Below are positions 2,209 through 32,128 of a DNA stretch of 35,780 nucleotides, piece after piece. The notes beneath the pieces are model-generated. The model had not been told where the DNA came from. It saw only the letters and a list, made by a program, of their open reading frames with translations, and made no database searches. This stretch comes from Bacteroidales bacterium (GTDB lineage: Bacteria > Bacteroidota > Bacteroidia > Bacteroidales > UBA12170): positions 1 through 35,780 of the forward strand of contig JAGGUP010000164.1 in assembly GCA_021158405.1 (NCBI GenBank). Direction: 5' to 3'. Positions within the stretch are counted from its first letter, which is position 1. Every line of letters begins with the position of its first letter. The position numbers and the translations under genes are program-made.

Positions 2209-3300
2209 ATGACGAGAGTAACTTCTATACTGAATCAACAAAAGTTCTCAAAAGAGGATTTGCTATTTTTATTGAAAACAGAGGGTGATAATCTGAAGCA
2301 TCTCTTTGAAAAAGCCGCTGAAATCAAAAAAGAGAACGTCGGTAATAAAGTATATTTCCGAGGTTTAATAGAATATTCCAATATTTGTTCGAAAGATTGT
2401 TTTTATTGTGGTGTTCGTCGGAGCAACAAAAATATCCAGCGTTATCAATTAAATGATAATGAAGTAATTCAGGCTGCACAATTCGCTTTTGATCAGAGAT
2501 TTGCTTCCTTGGTGATTCAATCAGGAGAACGAAGCAACAAAGCTTTTACTGAGCAAATGGAGAAACTGATTATAGAAATAAAAAAAATAGGGAACAGCGC
2601 TTTAGGAATCACCTTATCTTGTGGGGAACAGAGTATTGAAACTTATAAGCGTTGGTTTGATGCAGGCGCTCATCGCTATTTGCTTCGCATAGAAACCAGT
2701 AATGAAAATCTGTATTATAAGATTCATCCAAAAGATAAAACTCACAATTTTCAGAAGCGAATTCAATCTCTTCACGATTTAAAAGAAGTTGGTTATCAGG
2801 TCGGCACGGGCATTATGATTGGACTTCCCTTTCAAACAATGGAGGACTTAGCCGATGATTTATTATTTTTCAAAAATTTGGATATTGATATGGCCGGAAT
2901 GGGTCCTTATATTGAGCACAAGCAAACACCTCTTTATCAATTCCGTAATACACTCCATCCTCTTAAAGAACGTTTTAAATTAAGCCTAAAAATGATTGCT
3001 TTACTTCGATTAATAATGCCAGATATAAATATAGCTGCCACAACCGCTATGCAAACAATTGACGCTGAAGGACGTGAAAAAGCGTTAATGGTTGGCGCCA
3101 ATGTAATTATGCCAAATTTAACTCCTTTAAAATACCGAGAGGATTATTTGTTATATGAAGACAAACCTTGTATTGACGAAGAAGCTGAGGCTTGTAAGAA
3201 TTGCTTGGAAGCACGTATTCATAGAACAGGAAACTCAATTGCTTACAATGAATGGGGAGATTCACTTCATTTTAAGAAAAGGAGTTCAACATTAAATTAA
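2209..3300 (+). CDS. hydE: [FeFe]-hydrogenase H-cluster radical SAM maturase HydE
   Basis: 363 aa. HydE is a radical SAM enzyme needed, with HydF and HydG, to build the 2Fe subcluster of [FeFe]-hydrogenase in the cytoplasm. The cluster motif CSKDCFYC is visible with Cys60, Cys64 and Cys67, preceded by the typical YFRGLIEYSNIC. Later segments GIMIGLPFQT and GMGPYIEHKQTP are characteristic of HydE, and they distinguish it from biotin synthase and from PylB-like relatives. Length is normal for the family. The start ATG 2209 sits 19 bp behind a good -7 box. The 3' end overlaps the convergent cardiolipin synthase gene by 9 bp. The partner hydG is at 8394; hydF and hydrogenase subunits are not in the window. 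Confidence 0.95.
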   Translation: MTRVTSILNQQKFSKEDLLFLLKTEGDNLKHLFEKAAEIKKENVGNKVYFRGLIEYSNICSKDCFYCGVRRSNKNIQRYQLNDNEVIQAAQFAFDQRFASLVIQSGERSNKAFTEQMEKLIIEIKKIGNSALGITLSCGEQSIETYKRWFDAGAHRYLLRIETSNENLYYKIHPKDKTHNFQKRIQSLHDLKEVGYQVGTGIMIGLPFQTMEDLADDLLFFKNLDIDMAGMGPYIEHKQTPLYQFRNTLHPLKERFKLSLKMIALLRLIMPDINIAATTAMQTIDAEGREKALMVGANVIMPNLTPLKYREDYLLYEDKPCIDEEAEACKNCLEARIHRTGNSIAYNEWGDSLHFKKRSSTLN

Positions 3301-5064: not shown

Positions 5065-6378
5065 ATGAAGACTAAGTCTAAAAATAAAACCATCAATATT
5101 ATCACTATGGGATGTAGTAAGAATCTGGTAGATTCTGAACACCTTATGGGACAACTGAGAGCTAATGACCTCAGCGTAGTACACCAGTCGGAAGAACAAA
5201 AAAACGATATTGTCATTATCAATACCTGTGGTTTTATTAACGATGCCAAAGAGGAATCGATAGATATGATTTTGGATGCCGTGGAAGCAAAAAAAACGGG
5301 TGAAGTTGAAAAAGTATATGTTATGGGTTGCCTCTCGGAGCGTTACAAAAAAGAGCTTCCTAAAGAAATTGATGGTGTGGATGGCTTTTATGGAGCTGCC
5401 GATTTACCCAAAATTGTTAGCGATTTAGGCGCTGATTACAAAACCGAACTGGTTGGAGAACGCCTTTTGACAACTCCATCGCATTATGCTTATTTAAAAA
5501 TATCGGAAGGTTGCGATCGTAAATGTTCTTTTTGTGCTATTCCATTGATTCGGGGGAAACATAAATCTGTTCCAAAAGAAGAGCTGCTGATAGAGGCTCA
5601 AAAATTAGCCGACCAAGGCGTTAAAGAGCTGATTTTGATTGCTCAGGATTTAATTTTGTATGGAATTGATCTTTATAAAAAGCAAGCTTTATCAGAATTG
5701 GTAAAAGAGCTTACAAAAATTAAGGGTGTTGAATGGATTCGTTTGCATTATACTTTCCCTACCAATTTCCCGGAAGATGTTTTGGATCTTATTCGAGATG
5801 AACCCAAAGTGACCAATTATATCGATATTCCATTGCAACATATCAACGATCGAATTTTGCGTTCGATGAAACGTGGTCATACAGGGAAAGGAACAAGAGA
5901 ATTGGTTCAATCTATGCGTGACAAAGTTCCGGGAGTCGCCATTCGCACCACTTTTATTGTGGGTTACCCCAATGAAACGGAAGAAGAATTTAATGAGCTT
6001 CTAGATTATGTACGAGAAGCCCGTTTTGAACGTTTGGGTGTATTTACCTATTCGCCGGAAGAAGATACCGCCGCTTTCAAATTAGAAGATAATGTTCCTG
6101 AGGAAATTAAGCAAGAGCGTAAAGAGCAGCTGATGGAACTACAACAAAGTATTTCCGATGAAATAAATCAAAATCGCATTGGTGATCTATACAAAGTGAT
6201 AATCGATCGAAAAGAAGATATTTATTATGTTGGTCGCACGGAATATGATTCGCCTGAAGTTGATAATGAAGTTCTAATTTGTGGAGAACAAGATGATCTT
6301 AAGATCGGGTCTTTTTACACTATTCTAATCACCAAAGCCGACAGCTTCGATTTGTACGGAAAAGTAATGGATAGCTAA
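5065..6378 (+). CDS. rimO: Ribosomal protein S12 methylthiotransferase RimO
   Basis: 437 aa. RimO adds a methylthio group to an aspartate of ribosomal protein S12. The N-terminal MTTase domain carries three cluster cysteines: Cys17 in ITMGCSKNLVDSE, Cys55 in INTCGF, and Cys89 in MGCLSERY. The radical SAM domain follows with CDRKCSFC (Cys150, Cys154, Cys157), then a C-terminal TRAM domain (about 370-437). The MGCSKNLVDSEHLMG opening is typical of RimO; the tRNA-modifying relative MiaB has a different N-terminal signature. Length is normal. A 163-bp palindrome sits immediately upstream, and a spacer rich in hairpins lies downstream. Confidence 0.95.
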   Translation: MKTKSKNKTINIITMGCSKNLVDSEHLMGQLRANDLSVVHQSEEQKNDIVIINTCGFINDAKEESIDMILDAVEAKKTGEVEKVYVMGCLSERYKKELPKEIDGVDGFYGAADLPKIVSDLGADYKTELVGERLLTTPSHYAYLKISEGCDRKCSFCAIPLIRGKHKSVPKEELLIEAQKLADQGVKELILIAQDLILYGIDLYKKQALSELVKELTKIKGVEWIRLHYTFPTNFPEDVLDLIRDEPKVTNYIDIPLQHINDRILRSMKRGHTGKGTRELVQSMRDKVPGVAIRTTFIVGYPNETEEEFNELLDYVREARFERLGVFTYSPEEDTAAFKLEDNVPEEIKQERKEQLMELQQSISDEINQNRIGDLYKVIIDRKEDIYYVGRTEYDSPEVDNEVLICGEQDDLKIGSFYTILITKADSFDLYGKVMDS

Positions 6379-8372: not shown

Positions 8373-8393
8373 TAGATATTTTTGCATCAAATT

Positions 8394-9827
8394 ATGAAGT
8401 TTACACCGGAAAAATACAAGATCGCCGATCAAAGCATGAAATCGTTTATCGACGTTGAAGAAATTAATAGTTTAATAGACCACAGTATTGCTACTCCTGA
8501 GCTTGTAGATCAAGTTATTCAGAAGTCATTAAACAAAAAACGACTGACGCTTCAGGAAACGGCCATTTTAGTAAACGCCAATGATCCGGAATCCATCAAA
8601 AAAATAAAAGAAGGCGCTCATAAATTAAAAGAAACAGTTTACGGAAATCGTATTGTTCTATTTGCGCCACTTTATGTTGGAAACAAATGTCTGAATAACT
8701 GCAAATACTGTGGTTTCAGAGTTTCAAATAAAGAACAAATCAGAACTACGCTCAACGACCAATCATTAGTAAAAGAAGTAGAAGCCCTCCAGGATAATGG
8801 TCAAAAACGTTTGATTTTAGTTTACGGAGAGCATCCTGAATATACTCCTGAATTTATTGCTCATACAGTAAAAGTGGTTTATAGTGTAAAAAAAGGCAAT
8901 GGCGAAATTCGTCGTGTAAATATCAATGCGGCACCACTTTCAATCGAAGGTTTTAAAACCGTTAAAGATTCAGGAATAGGAACCTATCAGGTTTTCCAGG
9001 AAACTTATCATCCCGAATCCTATAAGAAATACCATGTAAGTGGCGCTAAACGCGATTACAATAATCGTTTGACATCGCTCGACCGAGCTATGGAAGCCGG
9101 CATTGATGATGTAGGAATTGGTGCTTTATTTGGATTGCACGATTGGCGTTTCGAAGTTTTAAGTTTAGTAAGACACGCTAACCATTTAGAAGCTTGTTAT
9201 AACGTTGGTCCTCATACTATTTCATTTCCTCGTTTACAAGTTGCCTCTACTTTTAAACAAGAAGAAAAATATAAAGTATCCGACGAAGATTTTACACGCT
9301 TAGTTGCTATACTTCGTCTTGCTGTTCCTTATACAGGAATGATACTCACGGCTCGCGAACCGGAAGCCATTCGTAAAGAAGTCCTTCAGTTTGGGGTTTC
9401 TCAGATTGATGCCGGAACAAAAATTGAGCTTGGAGAATATGCCAAGAAAGAAGAAGACATCGTGGATCAAAACCTTAATCGCGAGCAGTTTAAGATTAAT
9501 GACGATCGTTCTTTAGGAGATGTGATTGATGAGCTTCTCGACGATTCTTATTTGCCAAGTTTTTGTACCGCTTGTTATCGCTTAGGAAGAACAGGAGAAC
9601 ACTTTATGGAATTCTCAGTTCCAGGATTTATTAAACGTTTTTGTTCTGCAAACGCGATTCTAACATTGGCAGAATATATAATGGATTATGCCAAGCCTTC
9701 TACTGCTGAAAAAGGTTGGAAAGTGATAGAAAAGAATTTAGTTGATTTGGAGGAATTTAAGAATACGGATGAAATAAAAACTCGTATTGAGCGGATTAAG
9801 CAAGGAGAGCGAGATCTGTATTTTTAG
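8394..9827 (+). CDS. hydG: [FeFe]-hydrogenase H-cluster radical SAM maturase HydG
   Basis: 477 aa from ATG 8394; the frame is open upstream to a TTG, but this ATG has the better spacing to the -7 box. HydG cleaves tyrosine to make the CO and CN- ligands of the H-cluster. The N-terminal radical SAM cluster motif is CLNNCKYC (Cys99, Cys103, Cys106). The second, C-terminal cluster of HydG is present as CxxC-N22-C (Cys391, Cys394, Cys417, in CTACYRLGRTGEHF and KRFC). The C-terminal cluster sequence and length separate it from the thiamine enzyme ThiH. hydE lies about 5 kb upstream; hydF is not in the window. Confidence 0.96.
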   Translation: MKFTPEKYKIADQSMKSFIDVEEINSLIDHSIATPELVDQVIQKSLNKKRLTLQETAILVNANDPESIKKIKEGAHKLKETVYGNRIVLFAPLYVGNKCLNNCKYCGFRVSNKEQIRTTLNDQSLVKEVEALQDNGQKRLILVYGEHPEYTPEFIAHTVKVVYSVKKGNGEIRRVNINAAPLSIEGFKTVKDSGIGTYQVFQETYHPESYKKYHVSGAKRDYNNRLTSLDRAMEAGIDDVGIGALFGLHDWRFEVLSLVRHANHLEACYNVGPHTISFPRLQVASTFKQEEKYKVSDEDFTRLVAILRLAVPYTGMILTAREPEAIRKEVLQFGVSQIDAGTKIELGEYAKKEEDIVDQNLNREQFKINDDRSLGDVIDELLDDSYLPSFCTACYRLGRTGEHFMEFSVPGFIKRFCSANAILTLAEYIMDYAKPSTAEKGWKVIEKNLVDLEEFKNTDEIKTRIERIKQGERDLYF

Positions 9828-19648: not shown

Positions 19649-19751
19649 TCCTCTTGCTTTTTAATGGCGGCAAAAGTACAAATTTTATTTAGTTGAACTC
19701 AAATTATACCTCACACCTTTGTGGAAAAGTTTGTTGATGCAATTTTATTTT

Positions 19752-19784
19752 TTTTGAAAACGATTCCTAAAATGATTATCTTTA
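19752..19784 (+). promoter_or_regulatory. Promoter of the T9SS cargo gene
   Basis: TTTTG ending at 19756, 20 bp, then TATCTTTA (19777-19784), one base from TAnnTTTG. It lies 45 bp before ATG 19829. Confidence 0.5.
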
Positions 19785-19828
19785 GAGCTTTAATCCAAAA
19801 CATTGATTCTCATTTAAAAAATAGCATT

Positions 19829-20998
19829 ATGAAAAAAATCTTTACATTCTTTTCTCTTCTATTCATTTACAACTTAGCAATAGCTCAAGATGCATGTAAC
19901 AACTATTGGTCTGCCATTTCCCCGGACGGGAATCATATTTATTTTTCATCAGATCGAGACGGTGGAAAATTTGAAATTTATCGAGTAGATATCGATGGAT
20001 CATCAAACCCAGTTCGTCTAACTAACGATGATACTGTTGATAAACTTTATCCTGCCATAAGTTATGATGGATCATTAATTGTCTTTCAATATGGGAATTA
20101 TGGTTCAACTGCCGAAGTTTATATTATGAATAATGATGGCACAAACCTTACTCAATTGACAGACAATGGTGTTTATGATGGTTATCCCAATTTCTCTCCG
20201 GATGGAACCAAAATTGTCTTTGATGCTTGGGATAATACAGATTACCCTGAAATATTTACAATGAATATTGATGGAACCGATCGAATACAATTAACAAATG
20301 AAACAGGTGCTTATTGGCAAAGTGCACCTATTTATAATCCTTCTGGTACTAAGATAATAATGAGTAAAGGTTTTAATGCTGATAACCACTTTGTACAAAT
20401 GGATTTAGACGGCAGTAATAGGGTTGATATTACTCCTTATAACGATCCATTAAGTGATATGGATTCCGGTTTGCATTTTAATGCCGATGGTTCAAAAATT
20501 GCCTTCTATACCAATGAATATGCTGGTGGATATAATACAGGTTGTGATATTGTGACCGCTGACGCAGATGGTTTAAATTGGATTCCATTGACACATTCAA
20601 CATACAAAGATTGCTATGCTTTCCCATTTTTCCATCCAACAAATGGAAAAATTTATTACTCATTCAATCCGGGAGGAACAGGAACTTGGAGTATTTACAA
20701 AATGGATTTGGATGGCTCCAATCCAGAAAAAATATCAACATGTACCTCTGTTGGAATCGATGAAAATTTCGATCTGAGTAAAAAACTTATCTATCCAAAT
20801 CCTGCAAAAAGCACTTTAAACATTGATTTTGAAGGTGAATTCAGTTTGGAGATTTATGATTTAACTGCCAGACTCGTATTAAAATCCAAAACAAAGAAAA
20901 CGGATATCAGCCAACTTAAACAAGGAATTTATATGGTTAGCCTAAAAGATAGTAATGAAAGGGTAATTAAAGTAGAAAAATTAGTGAAATCTGAATAG
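19829..20998 (+). CDS. Secreted TolB-like propeller protein with T9SS sorting domain
   Basis: 389 aa from ATG 19829, which starts a signal peptide (MKKIFTFFSLLFIYNLAIAQ); the frame upstream is leader only. The middle is a chain of TolB/PD40 beta-propeller repeats (SPDGNHIYFSSDRDGG, ISYDGSLIVFQYG, SPDGTKIVFDAWD, NADGSKIAFYTN). The last about 75 residues form a type A T9SS C-terminal sorting domain: KLIYPNPAKSTLNIDF, LEIYDLTARLVL, and ISQLKQGIYMVSL. Such a domain directs export across the outer membrane by the type IX system, so the cell should have a T9SS elsewhere. The target is probably the cell surface or medium. Substrate unknown. Confidence 0.88.
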   Translation: MKKIFTFFSLLFIYNLAIAQDACNNYWSAISPDGNHIYFSSDRDGGKFEIYRVDIDGSSNPVRLTNDDTVDKLYPAISYDGSLIVFQYGNYGSTAEVYIMNNDGTNLTQLTDNGVYDGYPNFSPDGTKIVFDAWDNTDYPEIFTMNIDGTDRIQLTNETGAYWQSAPIYNPSGTKIIMSKGFNADNHFVQMDLDGSNRVDITPYNDPLSDMDSGLHFNADGSKIAFYTNEYAGGYNTGCDIVTADADGLNWIPLTHSTYKDCYAFPFFHPTNGKIYYSFNPGGTGTWSIYKMDLDGSNPEKISTCTSVGIDENFDLSKKLIYPNPAKSTLNIDFEGEFSLEIYDLTARLVLKSKTKKTDISQLKQGIYMVSLKDSNERVIKVEKLVKSE

Positions 20999-24968: not shown

Positions 24969-27900
24969 ATGCAGAACAAGGGTGCTATACGATTTTTTGC
25001 CATTGCCTTTGCCCTCGTTTGCGTTTTTCAACTTAGCTATACTTATTTTGCCAAAAGTGTTGAAAAAGACGCATACGAATACGCAAATTCAACGCAAGTT
25101 GAAGAGCTAGCAAAAGCAATTGCAAAAGGAGACAACCTAATAGAAGGTAAAGTCTATGATTCTATTTCAAAAACGAATGAAAAATTCTATTTGGATTCTA
25201 TTCAAAATGAAGTAGTTTACAATATAGGGATTAGACAATATACGTATAAAGAAGTTAAAGAAAGAGAACTCAATCTTGGTCTTGACCTTAAAGGCGGAAT
25301 GAATGTTACGCTTGAGATTTCAGTTCCTGATATTATCAAGGCTCTTTCCGGTTACAGCAAGAACGCTACTTTTAACCAAGCTATTGCATTAGCTTCGGAA
25401 AAGCGAAAAAGTACAGACCTTGCTTTTATCGATTTGTTTAAAGAATCCATTAACGAAATTGATCCAAATTTCAGCCTTGCTAGTGTTTTTAGCACTATCG
25501 AATTAAAAGACAAGGTGAGTTATAATTCAACAAACGATGAAATTATTGTTGTTTTAAATAAAGAAATTGACGGCGCTATCGATCGTACTTTCAATATTTT
25601 AAATACACGTATCAATCGTTTTGGTGTTTCTCAGCCTAATATTCAGCAATTACAAACAAAAGGGCGTATTCTGGTTGAACTTCCAGGTATTAAAGATCCG
25701 GCTCGTGTTCGTAAGCTTTTGCAAGGAACTGCCAAACTCGAATTTTGGGAAACTTATACTTTCCCTGAAGTAATTGATTATTTTACCGAAGCCAATGCAA
25801 AACTTGCTGAGCTTAATCAGGTAAATAAAATCCTTACTGATAAAGAGCAAGTAGCTGAAGAAACTCAAGTAACTGAAAAAGCAGATACTGCTGAATCCAG
25901 TTTGATTAAGCAAGTAGAGCAAGATGCTTCTACCAATCAAGAAGCCGCTTATGATAAATATCTTGAAGCCAATCCTCTGTGGGCTGTCTTACAGCCTTCT
26001 TTGGTTCAAAATGCCTCAGGACAATCTTTCCCGGCAAAAAACGCTCGTGTTGGATTTGCCTCTGTTAAAGATACTGCACGCGTAAATGCTTTATTGAAGC
26101 AAGTTAAAACGGTTTTTCCTAGCAATTTACGTTTATTTTGGACAATCAATCCGGTTGAAAAAGGATCAGATGTTCACGAATTGGTAGCGATTAAAGTTAG
26201 CTCACGCGATGGCCAGCCAGCTTTAGGTGGTGATGTTATTGTGGATGCGTCTCAAGAATACAGTCCAACAGGAGGAGTAGAAGTTTCTATGTCGATGAAT
26301 AGCGAAGGTGCTCAAGCATGGAAACGTTTAACCGGTGACAATATTGGTCGTCAGATTGCCATCGTTTTAGATGATTATGTATATTCTTATCCAAATGTTA
26401 ACTCCGAAATTGCCGGTGGACGTTCGTCTATATCTGGCGGAGGAATGACAGTTGAAGAAGCTTTAGATATTTCAAACATTCTGAAAGCAGGTAAAATGCC
26501 TGCTCCTGCAATTATTGTACAGGAAGAAATTGTTGGTCCTAGTCTTGGACAAGAAGCCATTACTTCCGGTTTATGGTCGTTTATTATTGCCTTCCTTGCG
26601 GTTCTATTGTTTATGCTTCTCTTTTACAATCGTGCCGGATGGGTAGCCAACATTGCCTTGATAACTAATATCTTATTCATCTTTGGTGTTCTGGCCTCTT
26701 TAGGAGCTGTATTAACTTTGTCCGGTATTGCAGGTATTGTGTTAACGCTGGGTATGGCTGTGGATGCAAACGTAATTATTTTCGAACGTATTAAAGAAGA
26801 ACTACGATTAGGCAAAGGCATTCAATTAGCTATTACAGATGGTTATAAAAACGCTTATTCTGCCATTATAGATGGAAACGTTACCACATTGTTAACAGCT
26901 ATTGTACTTTATATATTTGGTAGCGGTCCTATTCAAGGTTTTGCCACCACACTTATCATTGGTATTTTTGCTTCATTATTCTCAGCTATTCTTATTACTC
27001 GTTTGATTTTCTCCAGATTGATGGATAAAAATAAAGTGGTTAAATTTGGTAATAAGCATACAGAAAACTTTTTAGCCAATGTCAATTTTGATTTTATTGG
27101 CAAACGTAAAATTGCTTATATCATTTCAGCTGTCATCCTGATTGTAGGAATTGGTTCCTTAGCAACAAAAGGATTAAGTTTTGGCGTTGATTTCTCCGGA
27201 GGACGATCTTATATTATTCGTTTCGATGAAGCAGTAAATACAACCGATATCCGTAAGGCTTTGTCCGATGCTTTTGGTACTTCTCCCGAAGTAAAAACTT
27301 TTGGTCCTGATCGTCAGGTTAAAGTTACTACACAATATATGATTGATGATGATAGCGATAATGTAGATGAAATTGTTCAACACAAAATCTTTGATGCATT
27401 GAGTCCATTCTATAAAAAAAGTATTACTTACACTCAGTTTTCTGGTGATACAGGTGATACAGAACAATTAGTAGGAATTCTAAGCTTGCAAAAAGTAGGA
27501 CCAACTATTGTGGATGAAATTATTCGCGGTGCTTTCTTTGCTATCTTTTTTGCTCTGATTATTATCTTAGGATACATTACTCTTCGCTTTAAGAAATGGC
27601 AATATGGTGTTGGAGGTGTTGTGGCCTTGTTCCACGATGCTTTAATCACCGTAGGTTTGTTCTCTATTTTCTATGGTATATTACCTTTTAGTATGGATGT
27701 AGATCAAGCGTTTATTGCAGCTATTCTAACTATTATCGGTTATTCTATCAACGATACGGTTATTATCTTTGACCGTATTCGTGAAAATACAGGCTTGCAT
27801 AAAAAACTCAGCTTGAAAGAAAATATGAATAACGCATTGAACAGTACGCTTCCTCGTACTTTGAATACTTCAGGAACAACGATGATTGTATTGCTTATCA

Positions 27901-28067
27901 TATTTATTTTTGGAGGTGAAATTATCAGAGGCTTTATATTTGCCCTATTAACAGGTGTTATAGTAGGAACATATTCATCACTATTTACAGCTAGTCCAAT
28001 TGCTTATGATTTATTAAAGGGTGACAAACAAGACATCCAACCAAAAAAAGTTAGCAAAAAGAAATAA
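24969..28067 (+). CDS. secDF: Fused protein translocase subunit SecDF
   Basis: 1032 aa. SecD and SecF assist the SecYEG channel by using the proton gradient to pull proteins out on the periplasmic side. The SecD part (about 1-690) has an N-terminal helix, LGLDLKGGMNVTLEI, and a large P1 domain (with an acidic/Gln-rich stretch near 300-325), then six helices starting at ITSGLWSFIIAFLAVLLFML, with GMAVDANVIIFERIKEE. The SecF part (about 700-1032) has GVDFSGGRSYIIRF and IGYSINDTVIIFDRIREN. Both charged signature segments (DANVIIFERI; NDTVIIFDRI) are intact. A fused SecDF is usual in Bacteroidota. A strong terminator follows, so it is probably a single-gene unit. Confidence 0.97.
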   Translation: MQNKGAIRFFAIAFALVCVFQLSYTYFAKSVEKDAYEYANSTQVEELAKAIAKGDNLIEGKVYDSISKTNEKFYLDSIQNEVVYNIGIRQYTYKEVKERELNLGLDLKGGMNVTLEISVPDIIKALSGYSKNATFNQAIALASEKRKSTDLAFIDLFKESINEIDPNFSLASVFSTIELKDKVSYNSTNDEIIVVLNKEIDGAIDRTFNILNTRINRFGVSQPNIQQLQTKGRILVELPGIKDPARVRKLLQGTAKLEFWETYTFPEVIDYFTEANAKLAELNQVNKILTDKEQVAEETQVTEKADTAESSLIKQVEQDASTNQEAAYDKYLEANPLWAVLQPSLVQNASGQSFPAKNARVGFASVKDTARVNALLKQVKTVFPSNLRLFWTINPVEKGSDVHELVAIKVSSRDGQPALGGDVIVDASQEYSPTGGVEVSMSMNSEGAQAWKRLTGDNIGRQIAIVLDDYVYSYPNVNSEIAGGRSSISGGGMTVEEALDISNILKAGKMPAPAIIVQEEIVGPSLGQEAITSGLWSFIIAFLAVLLFMLLFYNRAGWVANIALITNILFIFGVLASLGAVLTLSGIAGIVLTLGMAVDANVIIFERIKEELRLGKGIQLAITDGYKNAYSAIIDGNVTTLLTAIVLYIFGSGPIQGFATTLIIGIFASLFSAILITRLIFSRLMDKNKVVKFGNKHTENFLANVNFDFIGKRKIAYIISAVILIVGIGSLATKGLSFGVDFSGGRSYIIRFDEAVNTTDIRKALSDAFGTSPEVKTFGPDRQVKVTTQYMIDDDSDNVDEIVQHKIFDALSPFYKKSITYTQFSGDTGDTEQLVGILSLQKVGPTIVDEIIRGAFFAIFFALIIILGYITLRFKKWQYGVGGVVALFHDALITVGLFSIFYGILPFSMDVDQAFIAAILTIIGYSINDTVIIFDRIRENTGLHKKLSLKENMNNALNSTLPRTLNTSGTTMIVLLIIFIFGGEIIRGFIFALLTGVIVGTYSSLFTASPIAYDLLKGDKQDIQPKKVSKKK

Positions 28068-28086
28068 GCTGATTCATAACGATATT

Positions 28087-28120
28087 AAAAGTCCCGTCAT
28101 TCGTGTCGGGACTTTTTTTA
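28087..28120 (+). terminator. Intrinsic terminator of secDF
   Basis: AAAAGTCCCG (28087-28096) pairs perfectly with CGGGACTTTT (28107-28116), loop TCATTCGTGT, followed by more T residues. It stands 19 bp after the secDF stop. Confidence 0.9.
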
Positions 28121-28126
28121 TTTTTG
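28119..28126 (+). promoter_or_regulatory. -7 element of tatA unit, abutting the terminator
   Basis: TATTTTTG matches TAnnTTTG and begins on the last T of the secDF terminator. It lies 19 bp before ATG 28145. Confidence 0.45.
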
Positions 28127-28144
28127 CACAAAACAAAAAGATTA

Positions 28145-28465
28145 ATGATACCTTCTATGCTTCTCTTTCTTGATATAAGTGGTGGTGAACTTGCTCTAAT
28201 CGTCCTGTTTATTTTTATTGTTCTAGGACCGGATAAATTGCCTGAAATTGCTCGAAAATTCGGCAAAATAATGCGCTTTATAAGGAAAGCTACTGATGAT
28301 ATTAAAAGAGAAATTAATATTGATGAAGATCTTATTCAAAAGCCTCGCTCCTATTCTTACACAAAAAAAACATCTCTTATAGAGAAAAAGACATCTCCCA
28401 AACCGTCGGTAGATAATTCAGAAGAAAAAGCAACAAAATCAGAAGACAATAAAACAGAAATTTAA
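28145..28465 (+). CDS. tatA: Twin-arginine translocase subunit TatA/TatB family
   Basis: 106 aa from ATG 28145; ATG 28157 (MLLFLDISGG) is also possible, while the upstream GTG lies in the secDF terminator and is rejected. Layout is that of TatA/TatB: a single short N-terminal helix (GGELALIVLFIFIVLGPDKLPEIA), the hinge with GP and LPE, an amphipathic helix (RKFGKIMRFIRKATDDIKREI), and a charged, Ser/Lys-rich tail. The family helps fold-stabilised proteins cross the inner membrane. The motif does not clearly separate TatA from TatB, and tatC is not here. The next gene starts 25 bp on, so they are likely cotranscribed. Confidence 0.88.
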   Translation: MIPSMLLFLDISGGELALIVLFIFIVLGPDKLPEIARKFGKIMRFIRKATDDIKREINIDEDLIQKPRSYSYTKKTSLIEKKTSPKPSVDNSEEKATKSEDNKTEI

Positions 28466-28490: not shown

Positions 28491-30947
28491 ATGCTCAAAC
28501 AACGCTCCATTTTTTTAATCTTATTTCTCCTTCTCTCGATCTCCTTTATAGGTGCTCAAAATAGAAATATTAAAATTGCTGATCAGGCATATGCAGAAGA
28601 ACGCTATTCTGACGCAGTTCAAAAATATTTAAAAGGAAATAAAAAGATCAAAAACAAGAGTATGGAAAAAGAGCGCGTGAATATTCAAATAGCGAGATCT
28701 TATCTATTTATGAATAATCTCAAGCGAGCAAAATCATATTATTCACGCCTAATAAGAGCAAAAGCACAAGAATCTAAACCGGAACTGCAAAAAGAATACG
28801 CTCGTATTTTACTCGGACTTGCCGAATACGATGAAGCCAAAAAACAATTTGAAGAATATCAAGCCTTGGTTCCAGACGATCCACAAAGTCAAATTGGTTT
28901 AAAATCAGTTGAAATGATCCAGGAATGGACTAAAAATCCAATCAATTACAAGATTGAAAATATACGTAAAATAAATACACGTTATAGCGAATTTTCACCT
29001 GCTTACTTCGATAAAAATTACCAGAGTATTGTGTATACCACCACAAGAGAAGATGCGGTTGGAAAAGCAAAAGATGGCTGGACCGCAATGGATTTCAGCG
29101 ATTTGTATTCCAGCAGAATAGATAGTAAAGGCATTTGGACTGCTCCCGAAACCATCGACGATACTGAAACCGTCAATACTTCTGCAAATGAAGGTCAAGC
29201 CGTTTTAAACGATCGTTTTAGTACAATGTATTTTACGCGCTGTTTTCAATCGGAAGTTAAAGCGAGTGGATGCGCCATTCTGGAAGTGAAAAAATCCGGT
29301 CGTCTTTGGTCCAATCCAAAAATTGTGGTTTTGGGAGGCGATAGTAGCAGTTCCATTGGTCATCCTACACTCTCTTCGGATGAGAATACAATCCTTTTTT
29401 CTGCCGACTTTCCAAATGGTTCCGGCGGACAAGACATCTACATTGCACACAGAAAGAAAAAAGGGGATAAATTTATGCTTCCTCGAAATCTGGGAACAAT
29501 AATTAATACATCAGGCGAAGAATTATTTCCATTTCTTCGTAACGATACGCTGCTCTATTTTGCTTCAAACGGACATATTGGCATGGGCGGATTGGATTTG
29601 TATAGAGTGACTATAAAAGGGGATACAGCAGCTTCTAAGGTAGAGAATATGGGTAACCCTATCAATTCATCAGGCGATGATTTTGGAATTACTTTTAATC
29701 CGAATCAATTCGAAAGCGGATTCTTTTCTTCAAATCGATCCGGCGGCCGCGGACAAGAAGACATTTATTCCTTTAGTTTGCCTCCTATAGAGTTCGCCAT
29801 TCAAGGTACGATTATAGATGATTACAGTTTGCAACCAATCAAAGACTTAGAAGTTTTATTGTATACAAATTCTAAAAATATAGGCAAAAGCAAGACAAAT
29901 TCAAAAGGCCAATTTAGTTTTCCCACTTCGACTTTTCAAAGAGAAAAAAATTATGAAATCAGCATAGCAAAGGAAAACTATTTAACACAAAAAATCAGTG
30001 AATCAACAAAAGGTCTGGAGCATAGCAAAACCTTTGAGGAAGACGTTCGATTGATGCGTATTCCTGAAAAACCCATCCTTCTCCCCGAAATTCTTTTTGA
30101 TCTGGCCAAATGGGATCTAAAACCTCTTTACGAAGATTCTTTGCGAGGATTAATAGGCACTTTGGATGCAAATCCAAGTCTTGTTATTGAGCTTGGAGCA
30201 CATACAGATATGCAGGGAAATGCAGAACAAAATGATATCTTGAGTCAGAAAAGAGCGGAATCTGTCGTCGATTATATGATTGTTCGTGGCATCGATCCTG
30301 GACGATTAATCGCTAAAGGATATGGAGAACGTGCACCCAGAATGTTGGAAAAAACAATCGATAAAAAAGGATTAATTTTTAATGAAGGAACGCTGCTAAG
30401 TGAAGATTTTATCAATCAACTTCCTGAAAACAAGAAAGCGATTGCAAATGAGCTTAACCGACGCATTGAATTCCGTGTGCTTAGAAGAAATTACGAAACC
30501 ATCGATTATAGAAAGCAAGATACCAGCAAAAGCATCGCTTTAGTGGAAGCCGGAATGGAAAATGCTATTCAAGTCAATTTAATTGAGCCCGACTTATGGG
30601 AAATGCCGGTAAAAATTAACAATTACCCCGATCAAGTGATTTATACGCCTCTAACCAAACTCAATACCCTAAGTGTTGCGTTCGCTTTAAAATTATTGGA
30701 AGAAGGTGTTATTTCAAAAGATAACTTTGTTGGGGATGCCGAGAGCTTGATACAGGCTGGAACTATTGCGCATAAGACGCTCATCATAATTCCTGAATTA
30801 TCCATTGGAAATAAAAAAATTGAAAATATAGAAGTATGGGTTTGGCACGATTCACTCTATCCTTTCATTATAAATAAAGAAACCTTAAATCGTTTTGGAA
30901 AACCCGAATTCGATACAAAAACGAACAAAACATTGATAATCAACTAG
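28491..30947 (+). CDS. OmpA-family protein with TPR, PD40 and a retropepsin-like C-terminal domain
   Basis: 818 aa. A signal peptide (MLKQRSIFLILFLLLSISFIGAQ) is followed by TPR helices (about 25-140), a PD40 propeller (about 150-430; FSPAYFDKNYQSIVYTTT, TLSSDENTILFSADFPNGSG), a carboxypeptidase-regulatory-like domain (about 435-510), and an OmpA peptidoglycan-binding domain (about 535-665; GAHTDMQGN, NRRIEFRVL). This is the same order as the first gene of the window. The tail (about 700-818) is extra: it resembles a retropepsin fold (ALKLLEEGVISKDNFVG; ELSIGNKKIENIEVWV; LNRFGKPEFD), but the position of the catalytic DTG/DSG reads KLNTLS, so it would be inactive. It lies between tatA and purM with gaps of 25 and 2 bp, which suggests one operon. 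Role in the envelope is inferred. Confidence 0.88.
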   Translation: MLKQRSIFLILFLLLSISFIGAQNRNIKIADQAYAEERYSDAVQKYLKGNKKIKNKSMEKERVNIQIARSYLFMNNLKRAKSYYSRLIRAKAQESKPELQKEYARILLGLAEYDEAKKQFEEYQALVPDDPQSQIGLKSVEMIQEWTKNPINYKIENIRKINTRYSEFSPAYFDKNYQSIVYTTTREDAVGKAKDGWTAMDFSDLYSSRIDSKGIWTAPETIDDTETVNTSANEGQAVLNDRFSTMYFTRCFQSEVKASGCAILEVKKSGRLWSNPKIVVLGGDSSSSIGHPTLSSDENTILFSADFPNGSGGQDIYIAHRKKKGDKFMLPRNLGTIINTSGEELFPFLRNDTLLYFASNGHIGMGGLDLYRVTIKGDTAASKVENMGNPINSSGDDFGITFNPNQFESGFFSSNRSGGRGQEDIYSFSLPPIEFAIQGTIIDDYSLQPIKDLEVLLYTNSKNIGKSKTNSKGQFSFPTSTFQREKNYEISIAKENYLTQKISESTKGLEHSKTFEEDVRLMRIPEKPILLPEILFDLAKWDLKPLYEDSLRGLIGTLDANPSLVIELGAHTDMQGNAEQNDILSQKRAESVVDYMIVRGIDPGRLIAKGYGERAPRMLEKTIDKKGLIFNEGTLLSEDFINQLPENKKAIANELNRRIEFRVLRRNYETIDYRKQDTSKSIALVEAGMENAIQVNLIEPDLWEMPVKINNYPDQVIYTPLTKLNTLSVAFALKLLEEGVISKDNFVGDAESLIQAGTIAHKTLIIIPELSIGNKKIENIEVWVWHDSLYPFIINKETLNRFGKPEFDTKTNKTLIIN

Positions 30948-30949
30948 CA

Positions 30950-32128
30950 ATGAACGATTCCTTAAAATACAACCAACGTGGAGTTTCTGCATCAAAAGAA
31001 GATGTTCACGAGGCTATAAAAAATATTGATAAGGGGCTGTTTCCAAAAGCTTTTTGCAAGATTATCCCCGACATTCTAGGCGGTGATAATACTTTTTGTA
31101 CACTTATGCATGCCGATGGTGCAGGTACAAAATCGTCTTTGGCTTATATGTATTGGAAAGAAACAGGTGACTTATCTGTATGGAAAGGCATTGCTCAAGA
31201 TGCGATAGTGATGAATTTAGATGATCTGATTTGTGTTGGAGCTACCGAAAATATTCTGCTTTCCTCAACCATTGGACGAAATAAAAATCGCATTCCCGGC
31301 GAAGTTATTAAGGCTATTATTCAGGGAACAGAAGAAATTCTTGCTCATTTGCGCGAATTAGGAATCTCCATTTATTCTACCGGAGGTGAAACCGCCGATG
31401 TGGGTGATTTGGTTAAAACAATTATTGTTGATTCTACAGTAACAGCGCGCATGAAACGCGAGAATGTTATCGACAATGCAAATATTCAGGCTGGGGATGT
31501 CATTATTGGACTTTCTAGTTTCGGACAGGCTACTTATGAAACAGAATATAATGGTGGTATGGGAAGCAATGGCTTGACTTCTGCTCGTCATGATGTTTTC
31601 GCTCATTATCTTGCAAAAAAATATCCCGAAAGCTATGATGAACAAGTCCCTGATAGTTTGGTTTATTCAGGAAAATTGAAATTAACAGATGCCACAGAAA
31701 TTGAAGGCGTAGATGCAGGAAAACTTGTATTATCTCCTACTCGCACCTATGCTCCCATTATCAAATCTATTTTGGATCAATACCGGCCTCAGATTCATGG
31801 CATGGTGCATTGCAGTGGAGGAGCGCAAACAAAAGTCTTACACTTTATTGATAATCTGCATATTATAAAAGATAATCTATTTGATGTTCCGCCTCTTTTT
31901 AAGCTCATTCAAGAACAGTCGGGAACAGATTGGAAAGAAATGTATAAAGTCTTTAATATGGGTCACCGTATGGAGATTTATGTTCCTGAAAACATCGCGG
32001 AACATTTAATTCAAATATCCCGTTCTTTCAATGTCGATGCACAAATAGTTGGGCGAGCAGAAAGTTCTGACACTAAAAAACTTACAATAAAAAGTAGCCT
32101 GGGAGAATTTATTTACAATAAAACTTAG
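30950..32128 (+). CDS. purM: Phosphoribosylformylglycinamidine cyclo-ligase (PurM)
   Basis: 392 aa. PurM (AIR synthase) uses ATP to close the imidazole ring of 5-aminoimidazole ribonucleotide in purine synthesis. It opens with YNQRGVSASKEDVHEAI and shows HADGAGTKSSLAYMYWKET, DAIVMNLDDLICVGAT, YSTGGETADVGD, and GLSSFGQATYETEYNGGMGSNG. The length, about 40 residues longer than E. coli PurM, is that of the Bacteroidota form. The start ATG is 2 bp after the OmpA-family stop, so it is probably translated from the same message. No other pur genes are nearby. Confidence 0.93.
   Translation: MNDSLKYNQRGVSASKEDVHEAIKNIDKGLFPKAFCKIIPDILGGDNTFCTLMHADGAGTKSSLAYMYWKETGDLSVWKGIAQDAIVMNLDDLICVGATENILLSSTIGRNKNRIPGEVIKAIIQGTEEILAHLRELGISIYSTGGETADVGDLVKTIIVDSTVTARMKRENVIDNANIQAGDVIIGLSSFGQATYETEYNGGMGSNGLTSARHDVFAHYLAKKYPESYDEQVPDSLVYSGKLKLTDATEIEGVDAGKLVLSPTRTYAPIIKSILDQYRPQIHGMVHCSGGAQTKVLHFIDNLHIIKDNLFDVPPLFKLIQEQSGTDWKEMYKVFNMGHRMEIYVPENIAEHLIQISRSFNVDAQIVGRAESSDTKKLTIKSSLGEFIYNKT

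Follow-up and report, generated by a model that had tools for sequence, protein, structure and literature searches.

The forward-strand open reading frame at positions 28491–30947 of the window (the whole 35,780-nucleotide stretch of Bacteroidales DNA analysed here) encodes a protein of 818 aa that resembles the periplasmic scaffold PorE and extends approximately 150 residues beyond the last domain described for PorE. What is this extra tail, and what might it do on a protein expected to bind peptidoglycan? A first-pass annotation had likened it to clan AA (retropepsin-like) aspartic proteases, suspected that it was catalytically dead and treated it as a peculiarity of one gene.

A PorE-like scaffold with an additional domain

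The NCBIfam model for PorE (NF052230, T9SS_PorE) matches residues 9–665 with 532 bits, below its curated cut-off of 600. The domain order (TPR, propeller, carboxypeptidase-regulatory-like domain, OmpA_C) is that of PorE; the OmpA, PD40 and TPR_14 models score above their cut-offs, and CarboxypepD_reg and the other TPR models below. A signal peptide, read by eye (residues 1–22; 28491–28556), lacks a lipobox Cys and ends at a junction, A22-Q23, that is invariant across 11 aligned rows. It is followed by a TPR region (residues 62–134; 28674–28892), in which Pfam TPR_8 covers residues 62–92 below cut-off and TPR_14 residues 97–134 above it, and by a WD40-like (PD40) repeat above cut-off (residues 334–372; 29490–29606), presumably part of a propeller; that the whole propeller is present would follow from the layout described for PorE in the available text of PMC7192894. 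The carboxypeptidase-regulatory-like domain (residues 437–504; 29799–30002) is matched by CarboxypepD_reg. The OmpA_C peptidoglycan-binding domain (residues 536–625; 30096–30365; Pfam, 51 bits) has D573, N581 and R588 with the spacing of the PorE triad Asp576/Asn584/Arg591, and this pattern, with Gln permitted in place of Asn, recurs in 127 of 132 full-length relatives. A lipobox-like start, searched with a simple pattern, was detected in only three of the 132.

The tail itself (residues 690–818; 30558–30944) is separated from the OmpA domain by a linker (residues 675–689; 30513–30557). When the two domains were modelled together (28 rows), both folded, the linker stayed below a pLDDT of 50 and the pTM was 0.48, which suggests that the tail is tethered to the OmpA domain rather than docked on it. 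The words by which it had originally been noticed are all present in the 818-aa frame and in the order described: LLEEGVIS (735–742), LSIGNKKIENIEV (770–782), NRFGKPEFD (800–808) and TLIIN (814–818). The paralogue in the same window (open reading frame 118–2136, 672 aa) finishes with its OmpA domain (residues 568–663) and indeed has no tail. Several genomes, including that of the window, possess a second PorE-like gene, which counts against firm orthology with PorE.

The tail has a predicted retropepsin fold

Structure prediction and profile comparison together show the tail to be a predicted retropepsin-fold (clan AA) domain lacking the D-T-G motif; by sequence profile, it is homologous to domains with that motif on other proteins of Bacteroidota. 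The AlphaFold2 model of the tail has a mean pLDDT of 94.2 and a pTM of 0.87. A Foldseek search of the PDB with this model returned the Rickettsia protease APRc at the top (5c9f, E = 3.0e-5), and all 17 matches at E ≤ 0.001 were APRc or Ddi-type retroviral-protease-like domains. A second structural aligner gave Z 11.2 for Ddi1 (7efy; rmsd 2.8, 103 residues aligned) and Z 10.5 for APRc (5c9d; rmsd 3.6, 110 aligned). The structural check proposed by the first-pass annotation thus came out in favour of a retropepsin-like fold (Foldseek 3.0e-5, Z of 10–11).

Taken alone, the tail matches nothing in Pfam or NCBIfam, and phmmer found nothing credible in the PDB, the sole match being a kinase at E = 1.2; its kinship can therefore be demonstrated only through its relatives. 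Within a set of 34 aligned tails, 16 match PF13975 (best 1.1e-5) and 18 match the clan AA model TIGR02281 (best 8.5e-7), and the profile of all 34 retrieves Rickettsia APRc in register, at E = 0.021. Profile-profile comparison of the tail family with its DTG-bearing relatives (21 of 23 copies, L093 and L098 being omitted as too divergent) gave a probability of 99.9% and E = 2.9e-33; the DTG-bearing profile also matches the tail of the window protein directly (E = 1.6e-13). The clan-AA-like order of elements is thus more than a chance resemblance.

The catalytic motif is missing from every PorE-body copy tallied

In the profile-profile alignment, FIFDTGAS of a DTG-bearing relative lies over VIYTPLTK of the window protein, such that the D-T-G columns correspond to T719-P720-L721 (30645–30653). 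No Asp aligns there, as had been supposed. The absence of D-T-G was thus correctly recognised from the start, but its place was assigned to KLNTLS (723–728), four residues off; this stretch falls under the S-x-x-x-[IL]-S that follows in DTGASxVxIS.

We tallied the motif over 209 domain hits, dropping those under 80 profile positions and duplicate domains. The tally covers the loci fetched up to that point and not the full set of 135 order-wide matches; G296 and G023:C179 (stops inside) and G343 (partial) are among the matches outside it. The regions had been picked for fetching by open reading frame length and score, blind to the motif. Among the resulting 170 distinct copies, D[TS]G occurs in none of the 146 on PorE-like bodies and in 23 of the 24 on other reading frames, the 24th (L092) being a fragment cut by its contig. 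The verdict "probably dead" gains strength from this split. Following the aligned position through the homologues, we found a lone Asp, with no [TS]-G after it, in 73 of the 146 PorE-body copies; T-P-L is the reading in the window protein and its genus (10/146), and another cluster has S-Q-N (21/146). The three catalytic columns carry 1.8, 1.3 and 0.7 bits in 70 dead rows versus 4.3, 3.8 and 4.3 bits in 23 DTG rows, and residues 720–726 of the dead set stay at 0.7–1.3 bits (719: 1.8). Given the lone Asp in half of the copies, some trace of function may persist at the site.

In three loci (L113, from G258:C206, L112 and L079) the tail is a second, divergent copy, and the same genomes also have the usual one. 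The second copy of L113 reads D-P-G-T-S, the closest approach to an intact motif noticed among PorE-body copies.

Purifying selection on the dead domain

On PorE-like scaffolds of many Bacteroidales the dead domain is kept by purifying selection. The dN/dS of the tail (NG86) is 0.03–0.10 in all eight pairs compared, similar to the propeller and OmpA parts where these were computable, with dS near or at saturation in many of the pairs; identity of the tail ranges from 67 to 91%, as in the body. Helix, flap and strand columns remain conserved in dead rows, and L736, I741, F746, I759, V784, G803 and F817 are conserved equally to the DTG set or more (70 versus 23 rows). The presumed flap tip, G757-T758-I759 (30759–30767), identified as such by its place, is likewise retained: the 70 dead rows have G in 54, T or S in 52 and I in 60 cases.

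Reading frames are also largely intact, 133 of the 135 order-wide matches being free of internal stops. Among the 80 named loci (the best 80 of 584), 79 have a match that reaches residue 803 or beyond, and in the remaining one, L214, the contig ends first; an origin of the tail by chance read-through was dropped on this ground. The gene is in pieces in three of the same 80 loci, either by assembly error or by real loss: L140 and L179 are broken within the body, and L146 has two in-frame stops, one of them inside the tail.

A comparison of hydrophobicity over 127 columns showed that positions 697, 708, 733, 750, 753, 763 and 816 became hydrophobic in dead copies, of which the model places 697, 708 and 816 on terminal strands or on strands next to them; the dead copies are less hydrophobic at 691, 722, 730, 734, 747, 752, 755, 775, 785 and 798. 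As the comparison is between two clades, its p values carry no independent weight, and the pattern serves as a lead only.

Genomic context

The gene occupies a conserved neighbourhood of the order secDF-tatA-X-purM, where X is the PorE-like gene. In the window, all on the forward strand, it is preceded by secDF (24969–28067; NCBIfam, 1313 bits), which 57 of 70 testable loci have no more than 4.5 kb upstream, and by a TatA/B-type translocase gene (28103–28465; Pfam TatA_B_E, 2.3e-10), whose upstream presence was detected at 44 of 80 loci; it is followed by a purM-like AIRS gene (30950–32128; Pfam AIRS and AIRS_C), the direct downstream neighbour at 65 of the 73 loci that could be assessed. The genome also encodes PorM/GldM and two PorP-family proteins above cut-off. 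Since the protein scores 532 bits against a cut-off of 600 and has no lipobox, a role in the type IX secretion system (T9SS) is suggested by resemblance only.

Elsewhere in the window, the product of 19721–20998 combines PD40 with a Por_Secre_tail sorting domain and is likely to be exported by the T9SS as cargo. Three radical SAM genes lie close together (2209–3300, 5065–6378 and 8382–9827), two of which have BATS domains (a weak match in one case), the third being of the UPF0004/TRAM type; they possibly serve cofactor or hydrogenase maturation.

Distribution and probable origin of the fusion

Far from being peculiar to one gene, the domain proved to be a trait of many Bacteroidales. The tail is present in 10 of the 11 genomes of the window's family (which holds one genus), and 120 of 393 genomes sampled from the order encode the domain on one protein or another; PorE-like bodies were detected in 271 of 295. 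A sample of 395 genomes from the phylum yielded five matches, namely the window's own genome and four outside the order. None of these four copies is on a PorE-like body, as judged by length or eye; three have D-T-G and one D-T-L. The latter (L220) is another case of motif loss, on a non-PorE protein. Titles of the relatives (best 80 of 584) are mostly those of metagenome-assembled Bacteroidales or Bacteroidetes, Lentimicrobium included, some from rumen, and a few name Chlorobiota or Sphingobacteriia.

A tree of 93 domains (69 PorE-body copies left from the 146 after thinning at 60% identity, with L092 and the 23 DTG copies) parts dead from DTG-bearing domains by a single branch with support of 100/99. 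With the motif columns removed, the branch keeps support that is moderate only (84/83; recovered in 86% of 200 bootstrap trees). Presence of the tail requires 4 changes on a quickly built tree of 90 bodies versus 22.6 in shuffles; a single gain with a few losses would agree with this, the direction not being provable from such a tree. Some PorE-like genes in the same neighbourhood lack the domain, and their products end in a short extension that is often of low complexity.

One PorE-like protein (L234:3806–6262) carries a different C-terminal extension of about 150 aa; the SPOR domain guessed in it by eye was not confirmed by Pfam. Mobile elements yielded no carrier: 25 pattern matches on viral contigs include no relative, and 35 plasmid records match, none covering 80% of the query; the best, a Parabacteroides plasmid, matches residues 63–668 and stops before the tail.

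DTG-bearing relatives on other proteins

The non-PorE copies found across the order are on small proteins of about 180–290 aa, several of them lipoprotein-like by eye, and on others; when nine longer carriers were scanned, eight had TPR repeats and one a Fib_succ_major domain. Six of the TPR proteins (L082, L083, L086, L090, L096 and L097; 480–742 aa, several with a signal peptide by eye) bear the DTG domain at the C-terminus and are possible active counterparts of the PorE tail. In L085:391–1524 the DTG-bearing domain is fused ahead of the Fib_succ_major domain.

A search of the window's own assembly (96.3% complete) with the DTG profile gave no further copy at E ≤ 0.01, and no active partner is thus seen there. 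A separate weak match in this genome (C52, E = 0.27) is by eye an HdrA-like oxidoreductase and was dismissed as chance. Other members of the genus have D-T-G proteins that match the DTG profile weakly. Three proteins of the genus (L275, L280 and L277; 305–403 aa, lipoprotein-like by eye) contain two tandem retropepsin-like domains, the first with D-T-G and the second with D-Y-G or D-L-G, possibly a two-lobed bacterial form with one weakened site.

A probable docking or pairing module

We infer, as the likely account, that a retropepsin domain was fused to a T9SS-like scaffold in Bacteroidales, lost catalysis and was kept as a non-catalytic docking or pairing module. Fusion behind the peptidoglycan-binding domain would most simply have happened once, with catalysis being lost early afterwards. 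The OmpA domain would serve as the wall anchor of the protein, the TPR/propeller end would hold an outer-membrane partner (PorP in Porphyromonas gingivalis), and the flexibly tethered tail would add a further, non-catalytic contact in the periplasm. That the tail is under purifying selection and has retained its core and flap would fit a reuse for binding.

Such a contact could take two forms, to which we give about equal likelihood: two scaffolds may pair through the platform of N- and C-terminal strands, as retropepsins dimerise, or the tail may grip a partner protein or peptide. In retropepsin dimers the active-site loop helps to hold the two subunits together (the 'fireman's grip'). This loop is precisely what the tail has lost, which weakens the case for pairing of the classical type.

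More speculatively, the tail may be a lineage-wide pseudoprotease: Bacteroidales would have put an envelope retropepsin on a PorE-like wall anchor with its catalysis off, and the flap and terminal-strand platform would recognise a periplasmic element such as a T9SS sorting signal, a PorP loop or a second anchor. If this tentative idea is true, secretion or cargo anchorage in these bacteria relies on a dead HIV-protease-like domain.

The alternative that survives best would make the tail a ligand-binding pseudoprotease, its cleft and flap holding a peptide, e.g. a stem peptide of the wall, a loop of PorP or a sorting signal of the T9SS. Retropepsin clefts do bind extended peptides, and the presumed flap-tip G-[TS]-I is among the well-kept columns. 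Retropepsins, however, need two protomers to make the cleft, and in the dead tails the sequence of the loop that forms its floor is randomised; we regard this reading as possible, if somewhat doubtful. It seems improbable that the tail is a mere spacer or a cap stabilising the OmpA domain. Several tail-less relatives do have short low-complexity extensions at its place, but preservation of a precise fold is not to be expected of a spacer, and the OmpA domain and tail are predicted to have no fixed mutual orientation (pTM 0.48).

Continued aspartic protease activity, by way of other residues or of an Asp supplied by a partner, is very unlikely. It could draw on the Asp in the catalytic column of 73 of the 146 PorE-body copies and on the D-P-G of the second copy in L113, but T-P-L stands at the site in the window protein and its genus, none of the 146 copies has D[TS]G, and a half-site heterodimer would require an active partner, whereas the window's assembly (96.3% complete) holds no other copy at E ≤ 0.01 by the DTG profile. 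Equally hard to credit is a decaying remnant without function: the tail is missing from several PorE-like genes of the same neighbourhood, the active-site loop drifts freely and L146 has a stop inside the tail, yet dN/dS (0.03–0.10) and identity (67–91%) are as in the body and 133 of 135 order-wide matches lack internal stops.

Should the tail be, as we prefer, a dead domain retained for docking or pairing, a conserved retropepsin on a bacterial wall-binding scaffold would clearly exemplify how a protease fold can become a binding part. The most familiar dead aspartic proteases come from the pepsin family. In the open-licence PMC literature we found no report of a retropepsin domain on an OmpA/PorE-type protein of Bacteroidetes; what that literature offered on retropepsin-like pseudoproteases concerns Babesia, and what it offered on aspartic pseudoproteases and bacterial secretion systems is, by titles and opening lines of abstracts, on other subjects. 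The PorE-type anchor, for which four domains are described in P. gingivalis, has a fifth in many relatives, mostly known from metagenomes. Because DTG-bearing relatives exist in the same order, the change from enzyme to scaffold is directly testable.

Comparison with known systems

PorE of P. gingivalis (PG1058) is, in the available text of PMC7192894, a lipoprotein with four described domains, the last of which (OmpA_C, 534–668) was solved with a peptidoglycan fragment; it complexes with the barrel PorP and type B cargo (PMC9143113, available text). The window protein is like this PorE, as so described, in the order of TPR, propeller, carboxypeptidase-regulatory-like domain and OmpA_C, in its peptidoglycan triad and in matching the PorE model over residues 9–665. 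It differs in having a fifth domain, of predicted retropepsin fold, in being without a lipobox and in scoring below the model cut-off.

RloA of Pseudomonas aeruginosa, like the tail, has a secreted bacterial retropepsin fold and is linked to envelope stress; unlike the tail, it forms DTG dimers with peptidase activity, and OmpA is absent from the available text of its description (PMC12239564). APRc of Rickettsia conorii (5c9b/5c9d/5c9f) resembles the tail in predicted fold over the whole domain, but is a protease with D-T-G, which the tail lacks. An exported protein of Bacteroides fragilis (PDB 9iy9, a 420-aa chain titled putative endopeptidase) matches the predicted fold of the tail with Z 9.5 and the DTG-family profile at 5.2e-7. 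The bacterial clan AA proteases of the TIGR02281/PF13975 type, Bacteroidales copies included, are homologous to the tail along its whole length. Off PorE bodies, 23 of 24 fetched copies keep D[TS]G (the other being the contig-cut fragment), whereas the PorE tails do not.
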